The notes under the pieces: generated by a model
The model's database searches: none
Told to the model about the DNA's origin: nothing
The model's input: only the letters and a program-made list of their open reading frames with translations
Position numbers and translations under genes: made by a program
IMG/VR virus record: IMGVR_UViG_3300010885_073928
Coordinates: 1 to 25,704 of that record
Direction: 5' to 3' (one strand)
From: a virus
DNA length: 25,704 bases
In this document: positions 6,811 through 18,538 of the stretch, piece by piece
Layout: each line of letters opens with the position of its first letter
Position numbering within the stretch: the first letter of the stretch is position 1

Positions 6811-6843
6811 AACAAGAAGTTCTAATACAACTCAGGAGTGCCA

Positions 6844-9800
6844 ATGGCAGAACAAACTTTCAGATCACCAGGGTTTTTCGAGCAGGAAATTGATGCAACA
6901 GTCCAGGTGCAATCACCCGTCGGCACGCCAGCCGGCGTAATTGGTGTTTCACAAAGAGGACCCGCATTTGTTCCCGTAACTGTTGGATCTTATGAAGATT
7001 TTAAGACAAAATTCGGTGCACTAGATCCAAATATGTTTGGACCATATGCTGTTAATGAGTGGCTAAAAAATAGATCCGCCCTCACGTATCTTAGAGTTCT
7101 TGGAGCAGGAGCTAATTCTACAATTAGTGACCTCAATAACACAGAAGCTTTAGGAATCGTCAAGAGCGCAGGATTTATTCTTAGCGCAAGCAGTATTTCT
7201 ACATCCAACGGTTCTGTGGGTGCAAAAGGTTCTGTTCAGTTTATTGTTGCAAATCATACGTTGCCAAATGAAGAAGCTTTTGGTTACCCACAGTTTACTG
7301 ATAACAGCAGCGTCATTGACAAGACAAATACAAATCTTGTAAGAGGTATCGTTTTTGTTGCATCAGGTACACGACTTCTTACACTTGATAACACAAAGAA
7401 CTTTTCAAATATTAGCTCAGCATACCAGGGTAATGTTGCCAAGGTTGGTGCCATCGCCGGATCAACACTATCACAGCCCAAGTACTTCAAGCTAGTTCTA
7501 AGCTCGACACTTCCAGCCTTTGGATCCGCTGAGGGAAATTCTGGCGTCAGAATTCTTTCTGCCTCACTCGATCCTAATGATGCAGCCTACATTGGAAAGA
7601 TTCTTAATACAGATCCTCTTAAGTTTGCTGATGAGCAACACTTGCTATATGCTGACTTTTCTGTTGAGCACGATCTAGCTCCTGTTAAATCTTCTGCAGC
7701 TTATACGGTTGCAGTTGTCTCAGGATCTGCAACAGCTGCTCCGGCAGGAGGAATTGACTTTAATGCAATGTTTGGTAGATTTGATACCAGATACACAACA
7801 GCAAGAACAACTAGCTTTATCTCACAGCCATTTGGACTAAAAGAACACGATCTCTTTCATTTCGAAACGCTTGATGATGGAGTAGCAGGAAATAATTCCT
7901 ACAAGGTTTCTATTGCAAATCTTAGAGCCTCAACTGATCCATCTTATCAATACGGAACATTCGAAGTCCAGGTCAGATCATTGACAGATACCGATACAGC
8001 TCCACAAATAATTGAGAGATTTTCAAATTGCTCACTTGATCCAAATTCAGGTAACTACGTTGCAAGAATGATTGGTGACAAGAAGGTATATTTTGATTTT
8101 GATCAACAGAATCTCAGTGATAGAAAGCTAGTTGTAAAAGGAAAATATCCTAATGTTTCGAAGCTCATTAGAGTTGTTATAAACAGCAATGTTGAAAAGA
8201 AAATTGTGCCTGCTACGTCACTTCCATTTGGATTTAGAGGACTTCCAACTCTTAAGACAACGGACACACTAACAGATAGCTCTGTTACGGCTCTTGTTGG
8301 AAAAGACGGAACTGTTCTGGGAGGAACTTCTGCTCGCAGACTTTCTTATTCCTCAGGTACAATAGCAGCAGGTGCATTGACAGGATCAATAATTCCTCCG
8401 ATGCCGTTTAGATTCAAGGTAACAAATGGAACATACAATACAGGCTCAACTCCTCCATTCCTTGGCGCCCCTGGAAACAATGAAATAGCTGATGCGCGTC
8501 TCTACTGGGGTGTAAATACTCAAAAAATGCCGCTAAGCTCAAGCACAGACTCAGTTCTTGGTGTGCCAAATGCACTCTATCGTACAAATGAGCCAGGCGG
8601 TTTTAACTCTCTTATTAGTGCTTATGGTAAATTTGTAGGAATTGAGCAGCTAGGCGCATTGGTTACAGGTTCTGCAGCTGATGAATTCAATGATAACAAG
8701 TTCACACTTGCAAGAGTTGCAACCTCTCAGACCACAGGCTCAGCAAGCTCAGGATTGGCAGGAATTTTTGCTGCGGATGTCTTCACAGGATCTGCTGAGC
8801 AAATTATCAGAGAGTCAGCTTATGTTAGAGATGCTGTACCAAACGGTTCTGACTATACTGTAACAGACAAGACAATGGATGCTCGCTATACTCTAGCATC
8901 ATTGATCGCAACTTCTTCAGTACTGTTCAATAGATTTTCATCATATGCTAAGTTCACAAATATCTTTTATGGTGGTTTTGACGGTCTTGATATTACAGAT
9001 AGAGATAGATTCTATTTTAGAGATAGAGCTCTTTCTTCTGACAATGGTGGCAAGGCCGATACAGGCTATGCAGGACCTTTGGGCTCAACAACATTGTTTG
9101 GCGGAGCAGGAAGAAAAAATAACAATGTTGCTTCTCTAAATGCCGCATCTGCCATCATGGTTAATCCGTCAAATACAAATATCAATATTTTGGCGATCCC
9201 AGGCGCAAGAGACAAAATTGTTACAGACAATGCTTTGACACTTTGCAAAGATAATGGTTTGGTGGTGTATGTGATGGACACAGTCAAATATGATAGTGCA
9301 GCAAATCGTCTATACGATGATTCAACTGCACGTCCAGATCCTGCACAAACTTCAGAAAATTTCACGGCAAGAGCTGTTGATAACAACTATGGTGCAACAT
9401 TCTTCCCAGATGTAAGCATCCAGGACACAGTCAACAACAGAGTTGTGAAGGTTCCTTCATCAATTGCTGCATTGTCAGTTCTTGGATACTCTGATAAGAT
9501 TGCAGCTCCTTGGTTTGCTCCGGCAGGATTCAATAGAGCATCTCTAAATTTTGTGCAAAATGTTGAGACTCGTCTCACGCAGGCAGATAGAGATACTCTT
9601 TATGATGCAAGAATCAATCCAATTGCTTCTTTCCCTACAGGAGGATTTGTAATCTTTGGTCAAAAGACGCTGCAACAGGCTAAGTCTTCACTTGATAGAA
9701 TTAATGTTCGCAGACTTCTCATCGAACTCAAGCGCAGAGTCAATGATGTTGCACAAAAAGTTTTGTTTGAACCAAATGATTCACAGACAAGAGCAAAGCT

Positions 9801-10008
9801 CGTTGCAGGAATAGTTCCAATTCTGGCTCAAGTCCAGGCTCAACAGGGAGTTGAATCATTCTCCGTTGTATGCGATGATAGAAATAACACGACAGCTGAT
9901 ATTGAAGCAAATAAAATGAATTGCAAAATTGTGATTGTCCCAACAAGAACAATTGAGTTCATTTCGATCGATTTCATTGTAACAAATTCTGGCGTCCAGT
10001 TCGTGTAA
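6844..10008 (+). CDS. Tail sheath protein 1, T4 gp18-like
   Basis: A 1,054-aa protein. Start chosen at ATG 6844 (MAEQTF), with AGGAG at 6834-6838; a GTG at 6838 is in frame but overlaps this ribosome site. The N-terminal block (residues ~8-85: SPGFFEQEID, PAGVIGVSQRGPAFVPVTV, then LTYLRVLGAG) and C-terminal block (~925-1054: INPIASFPTGGFVIFGQKT, DRINVRRLLIELKRRV, IEFISIDFIVTNSG) are hallmarks of contractile sheath subunits. The C-terminal and N-terminal arms interlock neighbouring subunits in the helical sheath. Residues ~100-900 hold large surface insertions; T4 gp18 is only 659 aa. It is followed 32 nt later by a full-length paralogue. A structural virion protein that contracts to drive the tube through the host envelope. 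Confidence 0.93.
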   Translation: MAEQTFRSPGFFEQEIDATVQVQSPVGTPAGVIGVSQRGPAFVPVTVGSYEDFKTKFGALDPNMFGPYAVNEWLKNRSALTYLRVLGAGANSTISDLNNTEALGIVKSAGFILSASSISTSNGSVGAKGSVQFIVANHTLPNEEAFGYPQFTDNSSVIDKTNTNLVRGIVFVASGTRLLTLDNTKNFSNISSAYQGNVAKVGAIAGSTLSQPKYFKLVLSSTLPAFGSAEGNSGVRILSASLDPNDAAYIGKILNTDPLKFADEQHLLYADFSVEHDLAPVKSSAAYTVAVVSGSATAAPAGGIDFNAMFGRFDTRYTTARTTSFISQPFGLKEHDLFHFETLDDGVAGNNSYKVSIANLRASTDPSYQYGTFEVQVRSLTDTDTAPQIIERFSNCSLDPNSGNYVARMIGDKKVYFDFDQQNLSDRKLVVKGKYPNVSKLIRVVINSNVEKKIVPATSLPFGFRGLPTLKTTDTLTDSSVTALVGKDGTVLGGTSARRLSYSSGTIAAGALTGSIIPPMPFRFKVTNGTYNTGSTPPFLGAPGNNEIADARLYWGVNTQKMPLSSSTDSVLGVPNALYRTNEPGGFNSLISAYGKFVGIEQLGALVTGSAADEFNDNKFTLARVATSQTTGSASSGLAGIFAADVFTGSAEQIIRESAYVRDAVPNGSDYTVTDKTMDARYTLASLIATSSVLFNRFSSYAKFTNIFYGGFDGLDITDRDRFYFRDRALSSDNGGKADTGYAGPLGSTTLFGGAGRKNNNVASLNAASAIMVNPSNTNINILAIPGARDKIVTDNALTLCKDNGLVVYVMDTVKYDSAANRLYDDSTARPDPAQTSENFTARAVDNNYGATFFPDVSIQDTVNNRVVKVPSSIAALSVLGYSDKIAAPWFAPAGFNRASLNFVQNVETRLTQADRDTLYDARINPIASFPTGGFVIFGQKTLQQAKSSLDRINVRRLLIELKRRVNDVAQKVLFEPNDSQTRAKLVAGIVPILAQVQAQQGVESFSVVCDDRNNTTADIEANKMNCKIVIVPTRTIEFISIDFIVTNSGVQFV

Positions 10009-10040: not shown

Positions 10041-13000
10041 ATGGCAGAACTAACATTTAATAGCGCCGGAGTCAGCATTAGAGAAATTGATTTGTCGGGA
10101 CCTTCATCCCAGACACCTACAGGATCTCCTGCCGGCGTTATTGGTACCGCGTTGAGAGGTCCGGCATTTGTTCCCGTGACTGTCGCCACATTTGATCTGG
10201 ATTTTGTTGCAAATTTTGGCAACACAGACGGAAAGAAATTCGGACCACTTGCTGTAAAAGAATGGCTAAGCTTTGCAAAATCTGCAACTTATCTTAGAAC
10301 TTTAGGTATTGGTGACGGATCTGCAAAAACTGCATCCGGAGTAAATGCCGGTAAGGTAACCAATGCAGGATTTGTTGTTGGATCAGAGCAGGTTCAAAGC
10401 ACAGGTTTGGTAGGACCAAATACAGCAGCCGGCGCTCATAATGTGGTTCCAGGTGTGGCTGGTAGAACTTATTTTCTAACTGCTCTAATGTCTGAGTCAA
10501 ATGGTTCGACCATTTTCTCTAAAGCAGGTATGCAAACAAATGCAAATTCGATCCCAGTCATAAGAGGAATTTTAATGGCACCTTCGGGAGTCGTTCTTTC
10601 TCTTTCATCTGCGATCAATACAAATGACAATAACCAGCCTACAACCTCTTCAGCCTTTGGCGCATTTGGTGTATTTGGATCCGGCGACGGTGGCGCGGGA
10701 ATTGGAAGCGTTTATACGGGTAGCGATGCATCTCAGCAATTTGTGCTTCTCGTAAACGGCCTAAAGAAGACTTCAGATAATCAGACAATTATCACAGCTT
10801 CATTTGATCCGCTAAAGAAAAATTACTTTGTGTCCACGTTAAATACGGATCCAGCGCAGCTGGAAGCAAAGGGACACTATCTCTATGCAGGTTATGATAT
10901 CAATGAAGCAATGGCAGTTGTAACTGGAACAGGGCTCACAGCTGAGACTGGTGTTGCAGGAAGCACAGGTCCTTTTGCTATGATGCTGTCAGCCGCCTCT
11001 AGCTGGAATAGCGGTTCTAAAGGCGACTCATCAACACTTGGTATTCCAAATTTTGAAGGATTTGAATCAAGATATGAGGGAGCTTTTTCACCCTTTGTTA
11101 TGTCTCAAAAGTTTGGTGGTCAATCACAAGATCTTTTCAGATTCTACTCAATTACTGACGGAGCCGCAGCTTCTCAGGAAGTCAAAGTAACAATTACAAA
11201 TATTGCTGCTTCATCAAATACAAACAACAAATATGGAACGTTTAGTGTTCTAGTAAGAAGTCTAAGAGACACAGATGATAATCCTAGAGTCTTGGAGCAA
11301 TACAATAACGTAAATCTAGATCCAACTTCTCCTAGCTATATTGCCAAGATCATTGGTGATACACATGGATTCTATGATTTTGATCAGCCATCTGGCAAGC
11401 AGCGTCTTGTTATTGAGGGAGATTATGCAAATCGCAGTCAGTATCTAAGAGTTGAAGTTTCCGAAGGTGTAAAGAATGGGTCAGTTGATCCAACTGCATT
11501 GCCAACTGGGTTTAGAGGCATTTGGCATCTATTGACTGCCGGCGACTCTATCGTTGTCAGTGATTCAATTCTTACAGGAACAGCAGCCACATTAACTGAT
11601 TCAAACTTGATTGGAATTGTCGCAAGCGTTTTGACAACCGTAAAGCAGCCACCTCTTCCACTTAGAAATAGTCTTGTAGCACCTTCTGGTCTGCTTGATT
11701 CTAATCTAACTTGGGGCGTTCAGTTTGAAAGACAGTCTTCTCCAACAAACACAAATGCTTCAACAGAGCTAGATCCATCAGTGGTTTCTTTCTGCAAGTA
11801 CTTTCCAAAGTATCACACAAACTTTCAGAACTCTCTTGTTGGTGATAATGCAGGAGCAGCCAATATTGGTTCATCTGTACTAGATGCCGATAAATTCAAT
11901 AACAATGGTTTTACCCTTGAAAAGATTGAAGTTATTACAGGAACAGTTACAAATTTAAATGCACTAGATCCAAATGAATGGGTCAATGCTCGTTACAGAA
12001 GAAACGGGGTTCTTTCTGGATCTATTCTTGATACAAACTCCAGCTGGAGAACAACAAGATTCTTTGATCCATCAATTGACTTCTCAGTTGGTTCAAAATT
12101 CACAAGCTTCACTTTGCCAATGCAGGGCGGATTTGATGGTCTGAATATCTTTGATACAGAAAAGAGCTCAATGTCCAACACAGCAGCAATTCGTGAAATG
12201 GCTGATTCTGTTAATCAAGGCGGAACGGCTGGCTCTACTATTGCAGCTTTTAGAAAAGCTGTTGATATTATGCAAAGCAAGACAAATGCCTTCATTCAGC
12301 TCTTGGCAATTCCAGGAATTAGAGAACCTGGTGTAACTGATTACACAATTTCTGCAATTGAAAATAATTTTGATGCCATGTACATCATGGATCTTCCTGA
12401 ATACAACAAGTTCTCTGTAATAATTACGGGTTCCGACCAGGCAGCTAACATAACAAATACTGTGAATAATTTTCGCTCAAGAGCTCTAAATTCTTCTTTT
12501 GCAGCGACATACTTCCCAGATGTTAATGTTTCCGATGCAAATGCTGATGGTACAGGATTACCAGCTGAAGTTATTTGCCCACCATCTGTGGCAGTCCTTG
12601 GATCATTCTCAAAGAATGACACTTATGCACCGTGGTTTGCTCCCGCTGGTTACACAAGAGGTTCTTTTACAAATAGAGTCCTCTCAACTGTCCAGAGCCT
12701 GGAACAAAGTGATGCAGATGTGCTATATCCTGCCGGAATTAACCCAATTAAATCTTATAATGGATCAACGGGACCGATCATCTGGGGACAGAAGACATTG
12801 CTAGCATCACAGAGTGCATTGAATCGAATCAATGTTCGTAGACTTCTTATCGAAGTTAGAAGAAGAGTTAGAGCCGTTGCCAATAACTTTGTATTTGAAC
12901 CAAATAGAGCAAGTACATTGACAGCTTTCTCTGCTCAGGTTACACCAATCCTAGCACAGATTCAGCAAGGACAGGGAATTGACAAATTCAGTGTTAGAAT

Positions 13001-13133
13001 TGATACATCAACTACAACACAAGCTGATATTGAGAACAATACAATTCGTGGAAAGATTTTTGTCCAACCAAAAAGATCGACAGAATTTATCTCAATTGAC
13101 TTCAATGTAACAAATGCTGGTGCACAGATTTAA
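10041..13133 (+). CDS. Tail sheath protein 2, paralogue of sheath 1
   Basis: A 1,030-aa protein with a good ribosome site (TTAGGAGA, ~10029-10036). It aligns with the preceding protein from end to end. The N-terminus has PAGVIGTALRGPAFVPVTV and SATYLRTLGIG. The middle shares YGTF.V.VRSL.DTD, then GD....FDQ, then FGFRG/TGFRG. The C-terminus has LNRINVRRLLIEVRRRV and TEFISIDFNVTNAGAQ. Divergence is substantial, so the duplication is not recent. Both copies keep the sheath core and both look intact, so each is probably functional. They may form a mixed sheath, occupy different zones, or be alternative subunits. Roles cannot be told apart from sequence. Confidence 0.92.
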   Translation: MAELTFNSAGVSIREIDLSGPSSQTPTGSPAGVIGTALRGPAFVPVTVATFDLDFVANFGNTDGKKFGPLAVKEWLSFAKSATYLRTLGIGDGSAKTASGVNAGKVTNAGFVVGSEQVQSTGLVGPNTAAGAHNVVPGVAGRTYFLTALMSESNGSTIFSKAGMQTNANSIPVIRGILMAPSGVVLSLSSAINTNDNNQPTTSSAFGAFGVFGSGDGGAGIGSVYTGSDASQQFVLLVNGLKKTSDNQTIITASFDPLKKNYFVSTLNTDPAQLEAKGHYLYAGYDINEAMAVVTGTGLTAETGVAGSTGPFAMMLSAASSWNSGSKGDSSTLGIPNFEGFESRYEGAFSPFVMSQKFGGQSQDLFRFYSITDGAAASQEVKVTITNIAASSNTNNKYGTFSVLVRSLRDTDDNPRVLEQYNNVNLDPTSPSYIAKIIGDTHGFYDFDQPSGKQRLVIEGDYANRSQYLRVEVSEGVKNGSVDPTALPTGFRGIWHLLTAGDSIVVSDSILTGTAATLTDSNLIGIVASVLTTVKQPPLPLRNSLVAPSGLLDSNLTWGVQFERQSSPTNTNASTELDPSVVSFCKYFPKYHTNFQNSLVGDNAGAANIGSSVLDADKFNNNGFTLEKIEVITGTVTNLNALDPNEWVNARYRRNGVLSGSILDTNSSWRTTRFFDPSIDFSVGSKFTSFTLPMQGGFDGLNIFDTEKSSMSNTAAIREMADSVNQGGTAGSTIAAFRKAVDIMQSKTNAFIQLLAIPGIREPGVTDYTISAIENNFDAMYIMDLPEYNKFSVIITGSDQAANITNTVNNFRSRALNSSFAATYFPDVNVSDANADGTGLPAEVICPPSVAVLGSFSKNDTYAPWFAPAGYTRGSFTNRVLSTVQSLEQSDADVLYPAGINPIKSYNGSTGPIIWGQKTLLASQSALNRINVRRLLIEVRRRVRAVANNFVFEPNRASTLTAFSAQVTPILAQIQQGQGIDKFSVRIDTSTTTQADIENNTIRGKIFVQPKRSTEFISIDFNVTNAGAQI

Positions 13134-13183: not shown

Positions 13184-13675
13184 ATGGCAGATACACTTTC
13201 AGTTTCAGAGATGCTTCCAAATAAGTTTGAGCCAAAGCGCAAATTTAGGTGGGTGCTTGCAATCGAGGGAATTGATTCATTCCTGATTAAGACGACTGCA
13301 AGACCCAACTTTAAGACAGAAGAGCTTGCGTTGCCGTTCATTAATGCAACCCGCTATGTTGCAGGTAGAACAACCTTTGAAACAATGGCTGTTACGCTAT
13401 ATGATCCAATTGCTCCTTCTGGTGCTCAACAGGTCATGGAATGGATTCGTACGCATTATGAGTCAGTTTCTGGTCGTGCAGGTTACGCTGACTTCTACAA
13501 GAGAGATATTCAGCTTAAGATGCTTGATCCAATCGGAACTGTTGTTGAGCTTTGGGACATTAAGGGTGCCTGGGTAACCGGTGCAACATTTAATGATCTT
13601 TCATATGACGAAGCCACGGGCGCAGTAGAAATTGCATTGACGCTTCGTTTCGATAACGCAGTTCTTCAGTACTAA
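13184..13675 (+). CDS. Tail tube protein, T4 gp19-like
   Basis: A 163-aa protein, the same length as T4 gp19. The sequence (FRWVLAIEGIDSFLIKTTARP, shown up to residue ~41; then ISV-like core with TFETMAVTLYDPIAPSG, QVMEWIRTHYE, LDPIGTVVELWDIKGAWVTG, and IALTLRFDNAVLQY) is the recognisable tube fold. It is a beta-barrel that stacks as hexameric rings through which DNA passes. The ATG at 13184 has AGGAG at 13173-13177. Arg codons are more often CGT/CGC than in neighbouring genes, matching high expression. It follows the two sheath genes and is followed by a GC-rich hairpin. Confidence 0.92.
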   Translation: MADTLSVSEMLPNKFEPKRKFRWVLAIEGIDSFLIKTTARPNFKTEELALPFINATRYVAGRTTFETMAVTLYDPIAPSGAQQVMEWIRTHYESVSGRAGYADFYKRDIQLKMLDPIGTVVELWDIKGAWVTGATFNDLSYDEATGAVEIALTLRFDNAVLQY

Positions 13676-13698
13676 TTTCTGTTCTTTCTCTGCTAAGA

Positions 13699-13727
13699 TC
13701 CGGCCGGCGCCTTCAAGCCCGGCCGGA
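13699..13727 (+). terminator. GC-rich hairpin after tail tube gene, possible terminator
   Basis: Arms TCCGGCCGG (13699-13707) and CCGGCCGGA (13719-13727) form a perfect 9-bp stem 24 nt after the tube stop. Only a poor T-tract follows (CTCATTTGG), so it may terminate weakly or stabilise the abundant tube mRNA. Confidence 0.5.
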
Positions 13728-13807
13728 CTCATTTGGCGGTGGTGAGGATTGTGCCAGAATGATTTCTTCTCTCTCTATGATTGTTCCGGTGGACAGACTC
13801 CAAAGTT

Positions 13808-13910: not shown

Positions 13911-14762
13911 ATGGCAGATCAGAGAGAATCTAACGACGTCTTTACACAGCAACAGGCACAAGCCGCAGGAATTATGACAAGAAATGTCATTAAGGATGAT
14001 TTCGGGCTTGAAGTTCCAGTTGATGCTGTTCCAATTCCATCATTAGGTGTCATTTATCCATACGGTACACCGCTGCATAAGGCTGAGACTGTTGAAATCA
14101 GATCAATGACAGCTCGTGAGGAAGATATTCTTACTTCTCGTGCCCTAATCAAGAAGGGAACAGTTATTTCACAGCTTTTGAAATCTTGCATTGTTGACAA
14201 GTCAGTAGACGTTGAATCAATGATTGCTGGTGATAGAAATGCCGTAATGATTGCACTAAGAATTACAGGGTATGGAGCAGAATATCCTTGTGAGATTTCT
14301 TGCCCAGAATGCAATGAAACAAATAGACAGGATTTTAATCTTGCTGGTCTGCCAATCAAGAATCTTTCAATTAGTCCTATCGTAGAAGGCGCAAACTTAT
14401 TTGATTTTGTGCTGCCTATGACAAAAAAGCGTGTTGTCTTTAAGTTCTTGACAGGACTTGATGAAACAGAAATATCGCAGGAAGCTGACCGTCGTAAGAA
14501 GAAACTTGGTGTTGAAATTGAAAGTCTTGTAACTTCACGACTTATTTCAACAATAGTTGAAATTGATGGAATTAAAGATCGAAATAAGATTAGTCAATTT
14601 GTAAGATCAATGCCCGCCGGCGACTCTAGAGCTCTTCGTAAATACATGGATGATAATGAGCCGGGAATTGAAATGAAGTCTTGGATGACATGCTCTTCTT
14701 GCGGAGAAGAAAGTGAGGTGCGCCTACCAATGGGCGCATCGTTTTTCTGGCCAGACAATTGA
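13911..14762 (+). CDS. Baseplate protein, T4 gp26 family, with zinc-ribbon-like cysteines
   Basis: A 283-aa protein. Residues ~38-60 (AVPIPSLGVIYPYGTPLH) and the following 'V.IRSMTAREEDILTSRALIKKG' (residues ~63-85, partly quoted) are characteristic of the T4 gp26 / T4_baseplate family. In T4 gp26 is a baseplate hub-assembly protein, and its gene precedes 51, which is the order seen here. Cysteines at 127, 131 and 134 (CEISCPEC) and at 261 and 264 (CSSC) could together form a zinc ribbon. T4 gp26 is 208 aa. The gene overlaps the next reading frame by 50 nt. The start has AAGGAG at 13896-13901, 9 nt from the ATG. Confidence 0.75.
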   Translation: MADQRESNDVFTQQQAQAAGIMTRNVIKDDFGLEVPVDAVPIPSLGVIYPYGTPLHKAETVEIRSMTAREEDILTSRALIKKGTVISQLLKSCIVDKSVDVESMIAGDRNAVMIALRITGYGAEYPCEISCPECNETNRQDFNLAGLPIKNLSISPIVEGANLFDFVLPMTKKRVVFKFLTGLDETEISQEADRRKKKLGVEIESLVTSRLISTIVEIDGIKDRNKISQFVRSMPAGDSRALRKYMDDNEPGIEMKSWMTCSSCGEESEVRLPMGASFFWPDN

Positions 14763-15036
14763 AGAAATAGTAACATTATTCTTTGGATTAACATCTGAAG
14801 ATAAAGTACTGTATCTAGAATATGTTTTTACTCTCATGTATTATATGGGATTCTCATATGGCGAAGCTATGAGTCTACCAATTTGGCAACGAAAATGGTT
14901 TGTCGAAAGAATGCTTGAAGAGATAAAAAATTCAGGCGGTCAAAGTAGAGCTCCTGATTCTAATGCTGCTGACACTAGAGCAATGACGGGAAAGCATCGA
15001 GATCAGGTTCCTGCAAAACACCGTCGATTTACATAG
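14713..15036 (+). CDS. gp51-like baseplate/tail assembly protein, expressed by GTG start or frameshift
   Basis: A frame in +1 register relative to the gp26-like gene. From residue ~15 it reads TIEEIVTLFFGLTSEDK, then YYMGFSYGEAMSLPIWQRKWFVERMLEE. The 'YGEA..LPIWQRKWF' block resembles small T4-like gp51 hub-assembly proteins. The C-terminus is hydrophilic. No ATG precedes the conserved part. One option is GTG 14713, with GGAG at 14703-14706 giving sensible 6-nt spacing, but its first 12 residues look like chance coding. The other is a +1 (or -2) shift at the T-run 14742-14746, fusing this frame to the gp26-like protein. Two overlapping frames just before the tape measure are reminiscent of tail-assembly chaperone pairs. 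Confidence 0.7.
   Translation: MRCAYQWAHRFSGQTIEEIVTLFFGLTSEDKVLYLEYVFTLMYYMGFSYGEAMSLPIWQRKWFVERMLEEIKNSGGQSRAPDSNAADTRAMTGKHRDQVPAKHRRFT
14741..14747 (+). other. Possible +1 (or -2) translational frameshift site
   Basis: In the gp26-like frame the codons are TCG TTT TTC TGG. Because 14742-14746 are all T, a P-site Phe tRNA on TTT (14742-14744) can re-pair as TTT (14743-14745) in the +1 frame and continue TCT GGC CAG into the gp51-like frame. The zero-frame stop is at 14760-14762, shortly downstream. Confidence 0.35.
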
Positions 15037-15079: not shown

Positions 15080-18000
15080 ATGGCAGAAGATACACAAGCA
15101 GTTGGATCACAGCTCGAAATGCAAGCTGCTATTACAAAGCAGCTAAGAGAGCAGTATAGACTTAAAAAAGCAATGGGTCAGCTAAACACTGACGTAAACT
15201 TTGATGAAATGTCTTTGCAGGCCAATAAAGCCGCTGATAGCACCGGAGGCATGTCAAATTCAATTAAAGATGCTGCTGATTCACAAAAGAAATTTGGTGA
15301 TGCTACGGCAAAGACTCACAGTCAAGCAGGTCTTTTTGATAGAATGATGGACAAATGGAATAAGTCCTCGCTTAAGAAATTGTCTGTTGGATTTCTTAAT
15401 ATTGTAGAGAATCTTTACAATTTTGGAAAAGCATTACTGCCATTGATTACTGGCACTTTTATTTTAGATAAGCTAATAGAAAAAGCAATGTCACTCCAGC
15501 AACTAACTGCATTTGCAACTGCAAAACAAGATGTTAAAGAATTTGCAGGAGATTTGAATAGTGGCGTCGGCAAAAGTATTATGACGTCATACAAAAACTT
15601 TGGAAAAAGTGTAAAAGACTTTGGCATCTCAATGTCCAGTGTCTACACATCCGGAGAAGTGGGTTCTCCAACTGGTGCTGCTGCTGCCGGTGATAATGCT
15701 GCAGCAGCAAGACTCAAAGACGTCAAAGAACTATATGAGAAGTTAGGTTCTTCTGTTTATCAATTCCAGGGCTTACTAGAAAAAAGTGCAGGTGCTTTAA
15801 TCTTTTATGGTAAAGCAATGGGAATTGGAAATGAGGGCGCCGCAGAAATGCTTAAAGTTGCTCAGGGAATTGGCAAAGATGGGCTAAAGTATGTGAAAGG
15901 ATTTGCAGATCAAGCAGCAAAATCACTAGAAGCATATGGTGTCTCAGCTAAGTTCATGGCCCGGGGCATGACAGAGCTGCTAAAGACTTTACCACATCTT
16001 CAGCGAGACGGTGCCGCAGCTTTTGCTCCAATCGTCGCTTATGCCCAGAAGATGGGACTTGAGCTCAAGCAAGTAACTGGAATTCTTGATACTTTCTCAA
16101 GTGCTGATAAGAGCCTCGAGGTTGCATCAAATCTTGCTCAAATTGGTGTCTCTCTTGATCCACTCGTTCTTGTTGCTGAAAAGAATCCTGCTAAACAGCT
16201 TGATATGATTGGTAAAGCTATGCATAATGCTGGCAAAGCCGTAGATTTGTCAGATAGACATATGAGAAGCTATTTGAAGAGCACACTAAGTATAGATGAC
16301 GCAACATTGGATAGAATTGCCAGTGAAAATGGTCTAGCAAATTCTTTTAACAAGACAGCAAAACAAGCTGATGGTGCAGCCAAAAAGCAGAAAACTCAGC
16401 AAGAGGTCATGGAGGAACTAGGAAAAGGTATTAGGCAACTTATTACTACCATGGATCTATCCAACAAAGGTATCACAGGCTTCTTTAGTGCTTTAACAGC
16501 AGGTTTTAGTGACGGTGTTATGGGCTTTGGTATAATGAGAGGCTCATTGATAAGCATTAGAGATACATTAAAAATGGTCTATAAGGCAGGAAAAGATCTT
16601 GCAAAAATGTTTATGGAAAGTTTTCCTGGTGTAAGAGAAATGTTAGAAGGCGTTGTTAAACTTTTTGACAAAGCTGCAACACGAGAATTTCTAAAGGTTA
16701 TAAAGTCAGCATTTAAAGAACTTACTAATATTGTAGGCTCACTTGATCCAAAGGAAGGCATAAAATCATTTTTTGAAAAGTTATTCAATGGATTCAATTC
16801 TTATAGTGGAAAAATTGGAACATTTTGGTCAAATATTATGCCTGGTCTTAAGACGTTTACTGATGCTGCCGGAAAGATTGTTGGAGGATTAATCTCATTC
16901 ATTGGCGACAAAATAGCTAGCGGAATTACATCTCTCGCTGATATCATTAAAAATGGATTTGGCGGAGGAGGCGGCGGAGGAATGATGTCTGATATTGGCG
17001 TTATTCTAAGAAATATATTTTCACCCATCTGGGAAGGACTAAAAGATGCTGGTGGAAAAATTTGGGATGCCATGGGTGTTCTTTGGACAGATGGAATTTG
17101 GCCAAAATTGCAAGAATGGGGAAAGAATCTTCTAAAGTGGGGTTCTGAGGCCTGGACAAGTCTTACAAACTGGTTTAAAGATACAAAGAGCTCAGGTGAA
17201 GGATCATTTTGGGCAGGATTAAAAATTCAATTTGAAGAGGCATGGGTTGGCTTGAAGGATTGGTGGCAAAATACAGCCTGGCCACAGCTTGAATCATGGT
17301 GGAATGAATTAGTAGAAAAATGGAAGCCTGTCATAAAGTCTAGTCTTATAGGTCTAAGAAATTTTATAGTAAGTAATCTAGGCGATGGTTTCTTAGCAAA
17401 TAAAATAGGCGAAGCATTAATGCCGAAGCCTGAGGATGCACTTGGAAAAGATTCAAAATGGGCAAAAGAATACAACGAGCGGTCCGCAGGCTACGGCTAC
17501 ACAAATTCCACAGAATTCAATAATAAATTATTAGCAGAAATAACAGAAAGAAAAAGAGTAGAAGATGATGCCATGAGAAAAGCAGATCAAAAACAAGAAG
17601 ATGCTATAGCCCTTGGATATGAAAAAATGTCAATTTTTTTAGAAAAAAATGAACAGAAAATAGCCGAGTCAAAAATAGAAGCATCAAAAAATTCATCAGA
17701 AGCGATTAAAAAAGCAGCTGATCTGGAAAGCAAAGAACGCATTAGAATTTCTCAAATGACTATTACAGAACTAGCAAAATTTTCCAAAGCCAAGGATCAG
17801 ACTGAAAAAGAGATTATGGTTAGAGAGAAGACGACAAAGCTTCGCTCTTTAACTGATCTTGTCAAAGAAATTAAGTCTGTTGATTTAGAAATAGATAAAT
17901 CGATGCTAGCTATTTCATCTCTCACAAAGGGTGAAGCTTTTGACAAAAAACTAAAAAAATTGATCGAAGGCATAACAACAGTATTTAATTCATTGACAAC

Positions 18001-18538
18001 TAAGCTCAATGAATTAAAACCTGAATCATTTACAATTAAGACAGATCTAGTTTCTGGAATTGTAGGATTTTCTGCATTATTGTCAAAAATGTCTGAATCT
18101 CTGATATCTGTAAAAGGATTCTCAATGGGTCCTAAGACATTTGATTCAATACATGCATCTGTAAAGAGATACAGCGATATTATTTCTACTTTAAATAATA
18201 TGAGTACTGAGAGCATCCTCCAGAGAGGAAATGACATTTTAGACTTTGCGAATAAGATCGTAACAGCTAATAACACGCTTCACAAAGACTCTACAGCTGC
18301 CTCAGTTCTTGAGGCAATCCCACAGGCATTTAAGAGTGGTAAGGTTGCGGTTACTCACAATCTTCCTAACACAAGTCTTAATATCTCTATTACACGAGAT
18401 ACAGCAGTTCTTGCATCACAGTTAATTCAGGTTGATCTAGGCACTGATAAAACTTCCCAGTATATTGCCACAGGAGAATCTAAAACCAATCTTAAAGAAA
18501 TTAGACCTTCTCTAGGCGGTACACTAGGTAAGAAATAA
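15080..18538 (+). CDS. Tape measure protein
   Basis: A 1,152-aa protein. Its length, helix-rich low-complexity sequence and position after the gp26/gp51-like genes identify it as the tape measure (T4 gp29 role, 590 aa). It sets tail length and is ejected with DNA. N-terminal ~100 residues are hydrophilic helix. Residues ~104-135 (FLNIVENLYNFGKALLPLIT) are amphipathic-to-hydrophobic, a possible membrane-active segment. A G-rich stretch occurs near ~630. Residues ~650-750 are strikingly Trp-rich (about 16 Trp, as in IWEGLKDAGGKIWDAMG). Residues ~840-980 are charged coiled coil. If length scales as in T4, the tail would be about 150-180 nm; that is inference. Start ATG 15080 has GAGGAAA at 15071-15077. 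The stop overlaps the next start (TAATG). Confidence 0.85.
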   Translation: MAEDTQAVGSQLEMQAAITKQLREQYRLKKAMGQLNTDVNFDEMSLQANKAADSTGGMSNSIKDAADSQKKFGDATAKTHSQAGLFDRMMDKWNKSSLKKLSVGFLNIVENLYNFGKALLPLITGTFILDKLIEKAMSLQQLTAFATAKQDVKEFAGDLNSGVGKSIMTSYKNFGKSVKDFGISMSSVYTSGEVGSPTGAAAAGDNAAAARLKDVKELYEKLGSSVYQFQGLLEKSAGALIFYGKAMGIGNEGAAEMLKVAQGIGKDGLKYVKGFADQAAKSLEAYGVSAKFMARGMTELLKTLPHLQRDGAAAFAPIVAYAQKMGLELKQVTGILDTFSSADKSLEVASNLAQIGVSLDPLVLVAEKNPAKQLDMIGKAMHNAGKAVDLSDRHMRSYLKSTLSIDDATLDRIASENGLANSFNKTAKQADGAAKKQKTQQEVMEELGKGIRQLITTMDLSNKGITGFFSALTAGFSDGVMGFGIMRGSLISIRDTLKMVYKAGKDLAKMFMESFPGVREMLEGVVKLFDKAATREFLKVIKSAFKELTNIVGSLDPKEGIKSFFEKLFNGFNSYSGKIGTFWSNIMPGLKTFTDAAGKIVGGLISFIGDKIASGITSLADIIKNGFGGGGGGGMMSDIGVILRNIFSPIWEGLKDAGGKIWDAMGVLWTDGIWPKLQEWGKNLLKWGSEAWTSLTNWFKDTKSSGEGSFWAGLKIQFEEAWVGLKDWWQNTAWPQLESWWNELVEKWKPVIKSSLIGLRNFIVSNLGDGFLANKIGEALMPKPEDALGKDSKWAKEYNERSAGYGYTNSTEFNNKLLAEITERKRVEDDAMRKADQKQEDAIALGYEKMSIFLEKNEQKIAESKIEASKNSSEAIKKAADLESKERIRISQMTITELAKFSKAKDQTEKEIMVREKTTKLRSLTDLVKEIKSVDLEIDKSMLAISSLTKGEAFDKKLKKLIEGITTVFNSLTTKLNELKPESFTIKTDLVSGIVGFSALLSKMSESLISVKGFSMGPKTFDSIHASVKRYSDIISTLNNMSTESILQRGNDILDFANKIVTANNTLHKDSTAASVLEAIPQAFKSGKVAVTHNLPNTSLNISITRDTAVLASQLIQVDLGTDKTSQYIATGESKTNLKEIRPSLGGTLGKK

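Follow-up and report, generated by a model that had tools for sequence, protein, structure and literature searches.

The window, by which we mean the whole stretch of DNA analysed here, is a 25,704-base virus contig, possibly a fragment. On its plus strand two overlapping genes sit between a gp19-like tail tube gene and a gene in the position of the tape measure (Table 1). The tube protein scores just below the cut-off of Pfam Phage_T4_gp19 (E 2.5e-6, 27.8 bits, cut-off 28.2). The gp26-like protein, which carries two CxxC pairs, matches PF12322 (T4_baseplate) over the cut-off (E 3e-18) and phrog_150 as well, and its reading frame ends ...GCA TCG TTT TTC TGG CCA GAC AAT TGA, with the TGA at 14760-14762. 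Profile searches with the gene in the tape-measure position gave no convincing family match; in Flavobacterium phage immuto the annotated tape measure occupies the equivalent position. The gp51-like ORF is read in the +1 frame, which is open from 14689, and if counted from the GTG at 14713 to its stop (15036) it overlaps the gp26-like gene by 50 nt. The original prediction that no ATG precedes the gp51-like part, and that this part lies in the +1 frame over the last 50 nt of the gp26-like gene, is confirmed: the earliest +1-frame ATG is at 14836, within the conserved core (LMYYMGF), and GTG 14713 is the sole ATG, GTG or TTG ahead of the conserved part. Between the tube and gp26-like genes a GC-rich palindromic stretch (13698-13735), absent from the output of the terminator scan, was noticed by eye, and in SP-15 a terminator is annotated between the same two genes. 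Two long tandem genes (6838-10008 and 10041-13133) are tail-sheath-like by eye, and positions 14803-14958 match DUF6760 (PF20546) below the cut-off (E 1.8e-4).

Table 1 Features at the gp26-like/gp51-like locus of the window.
Feature	Position	Strand	Basis or remarks
gp19-like tail tube, upstream neighbour	13184..13675	+	phrog_4542, E 4e-26
gp26-like gene, putative short tail-chaperone form (TAC-N)	13911..14762	+	PF12322, phrog_150, AlphaFold model
Rival start: GGAG, 6-nt spacing, GTG	GGAG 14703-14706; GTG 14713-14715	+	
RNA stem-loop, 10 pairs, loop of 4	14717..14740	+	Immediately upstream of the T-rich site; -16.5 kcal/mol
Candidate +1 shift site, TTT TTC T(GG)	14742..14748	+	UUU 14742-14744 can re-pair on UUU 14743-14745
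gp51-like C-terminal (T) domain, +1 frame, ending with a stop codon	14743..15036	+	Coding-like from 14743; homologue of cyanophage gp51 and of the C-terminus of T4 gp51
36-nt in-frame insert	14743..14778	+	Resembles a degenerate tandem repeat of the sequence starting at 14779 (FSGQTIEEI / FFGLTSEDK)
Tape-measure-position gene, 1152 aa, downstream neighbour	15080..18538	+	Position alone

The AlphaFold model of the gp26-like protein (pLDDT 85) was compared with the PDB. Foldseek returned nothing at E 0.001, and the HK97 tail chaperone 2OB9 took ranks 1 and 2 with weak E values (0.84 and 0.94). VIA aligned 88 residues with 3KLU YqbN, which we take to be a member of a tail-chaperone family (Z 5.8, rmsd 4.0), and 87 residues with 2OB9 (Z 5.4, rmsd 5.6); the next row had a Z of 4.2, and all Z values were under 8. 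The predicted model of the T domain is poor (pLDDT 69). By hhalign, the T-domain profile of the window and its relatives matches a profile built from two cyanophage gp51 proteins together with the C-terminus of T4 gp51 (90.1%, E 1.6e-6), thus "gp51-like" is a fair name for this domain; a BLAST search comparing the T part directly with T4 gp51 gave no match, the likeness being found by the profile comparison alone. T4 has two PF12322 genes, gp26 and gp51. The window record has one PF12322 match, the T domain being in a separate frame without PF12322, and ten long related viral records gave one match in nine cases and none in one, by a model that overlooks known gp26 relatives (no match in Mel-JY01 or immuto). 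As far as shown, the T4-style arrangement, with a gene of its own for the long form, is absent within the 25.7 kb of the window. The pair had originally been set apart from the usual tail-chaperone frameshifts. That distinction probably does not hold: the position between the tube gene and the gene in the tape-measure position, the weak chaperone fold matches and the likeness to the T4 gp51 C-terminus suggest that this is a tail-chaperone case.

Relatives were collected with the gp26-like and gp51-like proteins, and also two distant gp26 proteins, as queries. The first set comprised at least 260 viral loci, with the window 261; eight loci cut off near the site were dropped, and 183 distinct ones were kept. 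Two later scans supplied a hold-out set of at least 160 loci, of which eight cut-off ones were dropped and 138 were distinct. Several scans kept the best 80 matches each, and the sample is that of the loci nearest the queries, not a census. The gp51-like part lies in the +1 frame in 181 of the 183 distinct viral loci of the first set, window included; part of these 181 were found through gp51 similarity, which guarantees a T domain and leaves its frame free. The same relation is seen in 137 of the 138 distinct hold-out loci, six of which are open in both frames. The overlap of the gp26-like and gp51-like frames is beyond chance. The two exceptions of the first set (L264, with TTC TTG TAT, and L269, with TTC CTT TGG, the CTT ahead of TGG being kept) have the T domain in the -1 frame with an ATG of its own, and the hold-out exception (L383, TTC TTC TGG) has it in the -1 frame without an ATG. 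These three loci (L264 2200-2330, L269 2190-2320 and L383 1617-1700) offer natural controls for the loss or the switch of a shift.

Start codons that could serve a separate gp51-like gene are scarce. No ATG is found in the +1 frame up to the site in 156 of the 181 loci, so a clear ATG start of gp51 is not the rule among the relatives, and 83/181 have no ATG, GTG or TTG between the last +1-frame stop and the site. In 21 loci, the window among them, a +1-frame start is preceded at 4-10 nt by an SD-like 4-mer. The first start past the site lies 15-17 codons downstream in 104/181 (in the main clade it is typically the M of LMYYMGF) and has an SD-like 4-mer in 3/181. The stretch from the gp26 stop to the first ATG is, by its substitution pattern, under purifying selection in the +1 frame. 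Its pN/pS in the largest group, of 54 sequences, is 0.30 and about equals that of the core (0.27); a group of 6 gave 0.30 against a core value of 0.29, and a group of 14 immuto-like sequences, in which the stretch was taken up to a conserved IHE-type motif, 0.45 against 0.19. These groups cover 54, 6 and 14 of the 89 clusters, and the other 15 clusters fall in groups of fewer than five or are without the marker motif. Given the scarcity of starts and this pre-ATG coding constraint, translation has to enter the +1 frame ahead of the gp26 stop, and these comparisons make a strong case for recoding in the family.

The candidate site consists of the Phe-Phe or Phe-Leu codon pair near the end of the gp26-like gene and the T that follows. 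Most of the 181 loci have TTT TTT TGG (114), TTT CTT TGG (38) or TTC TTT TGG (24); TTT CTA TGG occurs three times, and TTT CTT TAC and TTT TTC TGG once each, the last in the window. Among cultured members, Microcystis phage Mel-JY01 has TTT TTT TGG and Flavobacterium phage immuto TTT CTT TGG. A CCT follows the two commonest sites, and the Pro codon of the window is CCA. Codon 2 is YTT ahead of T in 177/181 loci and in 87 of 89 clusters (75% identity), and in 137/138 hold-out loci, four of which have no Pro codon, were left unclassed by the script and were scored by eye. The site is thus conserved in the relatives, as a T-rich one. Where codon 2 encodes Phe it is TTT in 138/139 cases (gene-wide 0.68) and where it encodes Leu it is CTT in 39/42 (gene-wide 0.27); these counts include related sequences, and the p-values for the bias ignore relatedness. 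Were the slip to take place at codon 2, the third base of that codon would be noncoding in both products, hence dual coding is no explanation for the bias. The overlap 3' of the site is dual-coding and its conservation proves nothing by itself; CCT and GAC downstream of the site can be explained in this manner and were not used as evidence. Re-pairing at codon 1 (UUU|Y) or at codon 2 (YUU|U) is possible in 181/181 loci, and in the window at codon 1 only.

The original prediction had proposed that a T-run at 14742-14746 permits re-pairing of the Phe tRNA. The run of five T is there and codon 1 can re-pair, yet a "T-run" is too narrow a description, since 42/181 sites have no run longer than 3. 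The longest run is T7 or T8 in 114 sites, 4 in 24 and 3 in 42. Moreover, TTC-TTT occurs 24 times and TTT-TTC once in the first set (2 and 0 times in the hold-out set), which is a better fit to slippage at codon 2 than to the length of the T-run.

No SD-like word was found about 3 nt upstream of the shift codon at the family sites. SD-like words stand chiefly at -27 to -33 and at -9/-10 from codon 1, the nearest ones about 5 nt ahead of codon 1 or 8 ahead of codon 2, where the Gly codon showed no codon excess. GGAGG occurs about 28 nt before the site in 64 of the 89 first-set clusters (synonymous-shuffle mean 12.0, sd 2.9) and in 20 of 95 hold-out clusters; given the latter count it was dropped as a family-wide SD element, and it may be an arm of a stem.

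The wider gp26 family contains sites of the opposite direction. Fourteen T4-like phages with an annotated gp26 were examined (P-SSM2, S-PM2 and 12 picked among 60 listed of 671 records), and in 13 of them (L292, L293, L298-L306, L308 and L309) gp26 ends with the heptamer T TTT TTY, the T domain following in the -1 frame. Some of the phages, P-SSM2 and S-PM2 for example, have in addition an ATG close to where the T domain starts. T TTT TTC is present too in RaK2, Munch and four related viral records (L276-L279), and in L165 together with a nearby ATG. PMC12846349, citing Vladimirov et al. 2022, describes poly-T -1 signals as known from the TAC-N genes of T4-like phages; the -1 side of the gp26 family is therefore already known. 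The second ORF is missing, short or hypothetical in the annotation of S-CAM1, Aeromonas G2, ACP17, S-T4 and C48C1.

Other +1 arrangements were met as well. SP-15, LIS04, Streptococcus phage GXN1 and a locus of an Erysipelotrichaceae MAG have an open +1 frame at other codons. This MAG locus, with its +1 frame open, was the one relative among 61 pattern matches to an SP-15-type query of genome contigs, and a PF12322 search of 392 genomes of the MAG's phylum gave four matches. The SP-15 protein had no match in plasmids, and the tape-measure protein had 24 pattern matches in viral contigs, none of them a relative. As a side observation, in SP-15-like, Streptococcus phage and MAG loci (L166, L168, L169 and L274) the +1 frame is open after gp26 at TTT TTT or TTC TTT followed by other codons, and in three of the four NCC CGA comes after the Phe-Phe codons.

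Directly 5' of the site the window can form an RNA stem-loop with a z of -4.3 and the second lowest energy of the 89 clusters. Comparison with synonymous shuffles indicates that such a 5' stem-loop is selected across the relatives: the 27 nt before the site (codons -9 to -1) have a mean z of -1.29 against +0.08 for the control in 89 clusters, and the hold-out set gave -0.99 against -0.11 in 95 clusters at most 75% identical to the first set. With a 36-nt folding window, an excess was seen for hairpins ending at about -6 to +3 in all five clades with at least four clusters, whereas with a 26-nt window the excess close to TTT CTT sites is nearly absent (about -0.1 to -0.4). Selection for a 5' hairpin was not seen in the 13 phages with -1 sites (+0.32, control +0.09). 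RNAalifold detected no covarying consensus structure in 40 main-clade sequences (-1.4 kcal/mol); the signal is visible only per sequence against synonymous shuffles, which implies that the register of the hairpin varies. Folding of the 60 nt downstream showed no excess over the control (-0.47 against -0.42), and the z of -1.26 for 90 nt, for which there was no matched control, was left out of the argument.

We propose that the two ORFs belong to a single tail-assembly-chaperone gene that yields two proteins: programmed +1 recoding would join the ORFs, most likely through slippage of the ribosome at YUU-UGG-C. We hold this reading to be rather more probable than its rivals taken together. Most ribosomes would terminate at 14760 and release the short, G-like gp26, and a minority would shift to +1 at the Phe-Phe codons (14742-14747) and make a GT-like gp26-T fusion, predicted to have 374 aa, which by analogy with lambda would connect tape measure and tube protein; the roles of both products are likewise proposed by analogy. 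In the slip itself, modelled on the CUU-UGA-C of RF2, the P-site tRNA-Phe or tRNA-Leu would move from UUU or CUU to UUU or UUC, with UGG waiting in the A site. The window has UUC as codon 2, therefore its slip would have to take place at codon 1 (UUU-U), perhaps leaning on its strong hairpin. Comparison of the relatives shows, at the level of sequence, the +1 geometry, the scarcity of starts, coding constraint from the site onwards, the YTT-before-T rule and the selected 5' stem-loop.

Some observations run against this proposal. Three loci have TTT CTA TGG and can re-pair at codon 1 only, and L269 keeps its TTC CTT TGG despite a T domain with its own ATG in another frame. In E. coli prfB, the gene of RF2, the SD lies 3 nt upstream of the shift codon. 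The family sites resemble CUU UGA C of that gene in that CUU or UUU can re-pair on UUU in +1, but they present the sense codon UGG instead of UGA, there is no SD 3 nt upstream, and the window has the non-consensus TTT TTC TGG CCA. After the prfB codon, UUU and CCC are named as the next most slippery in PMC10885494. A stem-loop that ends at the site would be unwound by a ribosome slipping there, which makes a role of the hairpin in a ribosomal slip uncertain.

The chief rival is transcriptional slippage assisted by the hairpin: the nascent hairpin at 14717-14740 would draw RNA from the polymerase within the T-rich tract, and the gp26-T fusion would be translated from transcripts one U short. 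We consider this unlikely. The selected hairpin is adjacent on the 5' side, was replicated in the hold-out set and was not seen in the 13 phages with -1 sites; a terminator-like call was obtained at 14717 in the window; T7 or T8 is present in 114/181 loci, and the T5 of the window behind its strong hairpin would suit. There are two precedents. In the Roseiflexus IS630 a stem-loop, which the window hairpin resembles in position, stands immediately 5' of a T-rich motif and one base is lost (PMC5009743), and in IS1447 a stem-loop lies beside A9, seven A being sufficient for slippage (PMC6211511). The motif of IS630 is T5C5, however, and even one rC:dA mismatch is described as not viable there (PMC5009743), whereas many sites of the family are mixed and should realign poorly: runs of 3 T (TTTCTTT, TTTCTA) in 42/181 and of 4 T in 24/181 do not provide for a low-mismatch realignment. 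The 24 TTC-TTT sites against one TTT-TTC contradict the prediction from T-run length, the hairpin excess almost vanishes near TTT CTT sites in the 26-nt window, and tail chaperones are otherwise known for ribosomal shifts (PMC5009743). The 66/181 mixed sites with T-runs of 3 or 4 and the 24:1 excess thus favour ribosomal over transcriptional slippage.

For the window itself a separate start at GTG 14713, with a recoding site that has decayed, has to be weighed. The original prediction named this GTG, with its spaced GGAG, as the competing explanation of the overlap, and it is indeed present at a spacing of 6 nt; the window's shift codons are non-consensus (1/181), and L264 and L269 demonstrate that a T domain, there in the -1 frame, may have an ATG of its own. 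Nevertheless, the +1 frame at 14713-14742 scores as non-coding, its percentile being 0.0 when ranked among true coding windows and the 22nd among out-of-frame ones, a test weakened by the overlap with gp26, whereas 14743-14778 reaches the 39th percentile of true coding windows and the 99th of out-of-frame ones. Relatives that keep the full motif, such as L084, have a GTG at this place too, arising from the codons AGT GAG, and a T domain made separately would forfeit the shared N-terminus. We regard such a start as improbable, and recoding of one kind or the other, ribosomal or transcriptional, as likely in the window. Of the frameshift-or-GTG reading, recoding is well supported for the family; what it did not foresee is that the codons TTT TTC of the window are exceptional, codon 2 TTC being unique among the 181 loci, and that FFGLT, with which the conserved portion of the gp51-like part begins and which adjoins the shift site in the relatives, is found 36 nt further on at 14779. 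The intervening insert, which was not seen ahead of FFGLT in the relatives whose sites were inspected, looks as if it arose by tandem duplication: two 27-nt stretches compared at an offset of 36 are identical at 17/27 positions (P 0.0002 against random in-frame pairs). The single in-frame TTTT found along the fusion reading of the window is at 14742. With its codons, its 36-nt insert and its very strong hairpin, the window appears to be an outlier, a partly eroded copy of the signal.

That the hairpin and the T-rich tract are an intrinsic terminator or attenuator limiting tape-measure expression, the +1 overlap being incidental, is very improbable: the geometry in the window is terminator-like (two calls found against 1.3 expected from shuffles) and the hairpin is selected, but the +1 frame, the scarcity of starts, the pre-ATG constraint and the YTT-before-T rule are left unaccounted for.

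Compatible with either kind of +1 slip is a more tentative idea, that the hairpin behind the slip site pulls the RNA by one base through the polymerase, or through the ribosome on its way out of the hairpin, and that the family has switched between -1 sites without a hairpin and +1 sites with one at the same Phe-Phe codons. We think this less likely than not; if it is true, the hairpin would do most of the work in the window, whose shift codons are the weakest and whose hairpin is among the strongest.

In lambda, the G/GT gene lies between tube and tape measure. The ribosomal +1 reading gives the present pair the further features described for gpG/gpGT in PMC5009743, i.e. a short and a longer form with a shared N-terminus and a shift near the end of the first ORF; the shift of lambda is -1, whereas the family here is +1 with a 5' stem-loop, and the two are likened by description and not by sequence. 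With T4 the pair shares the PF12322 gp26 family and the C-terminal domain of gp51, which T4 differs in encoding in a second, separate PF12322 gene; gp26 and gp51 of T4 are tail chaperones according to Vladimirov, Gautam and Davidson 2022, as cited in PMC10885494 and PMC12846349. The -1 poly-T sites of cyanophages, Vandenendeviridae and others likewise use the C-terminal Phe-Phe of gp26 as slip site, and the cyanophage T domain is homologous, but there the heptamer is T TTT TTY, the T domain is in the -1 frame and no selected 5' hairpin is apparent in the 13 phages. A +1 shift has been proposed for the tail chaperone of another myovirus, HSTV-2 (PMC5009743), which in contrast infects haloarchaea and is likened to the family by description alone. 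In the literature searched, which placed the full text of Vladimirov et al. 2022 outside its scope, no description of the +1 YTT-TGG site or of the hairpin was found.

We read the locus as a real recoding cassette, conserved in many relatives and housed in a gene of known type, with a direction that differs from that of its cyanophage relatives and with an accessory hairpin; the window is its odd member, and to judge from the sequences compared, the signal appears to be common to hundreds of uncultured relatives. T4 is stated in PMC5009743 to be the exception to the rule that long-tailed phages have a tail-chaperone frameshift. A large group of mostly uncultured T4-like phages now appears to shift to +1 in the very gene family of T4, opposite to the cyanophages. 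Such shifts may be the reason that several deposited genomes lack the second ORF, have it short or list it as hypothetical, and the two homologous natural sets of sites, which differ in direction, codons and hairpin, provide a test bed for the causes of forward slipping by a ribosome or a polymerase.
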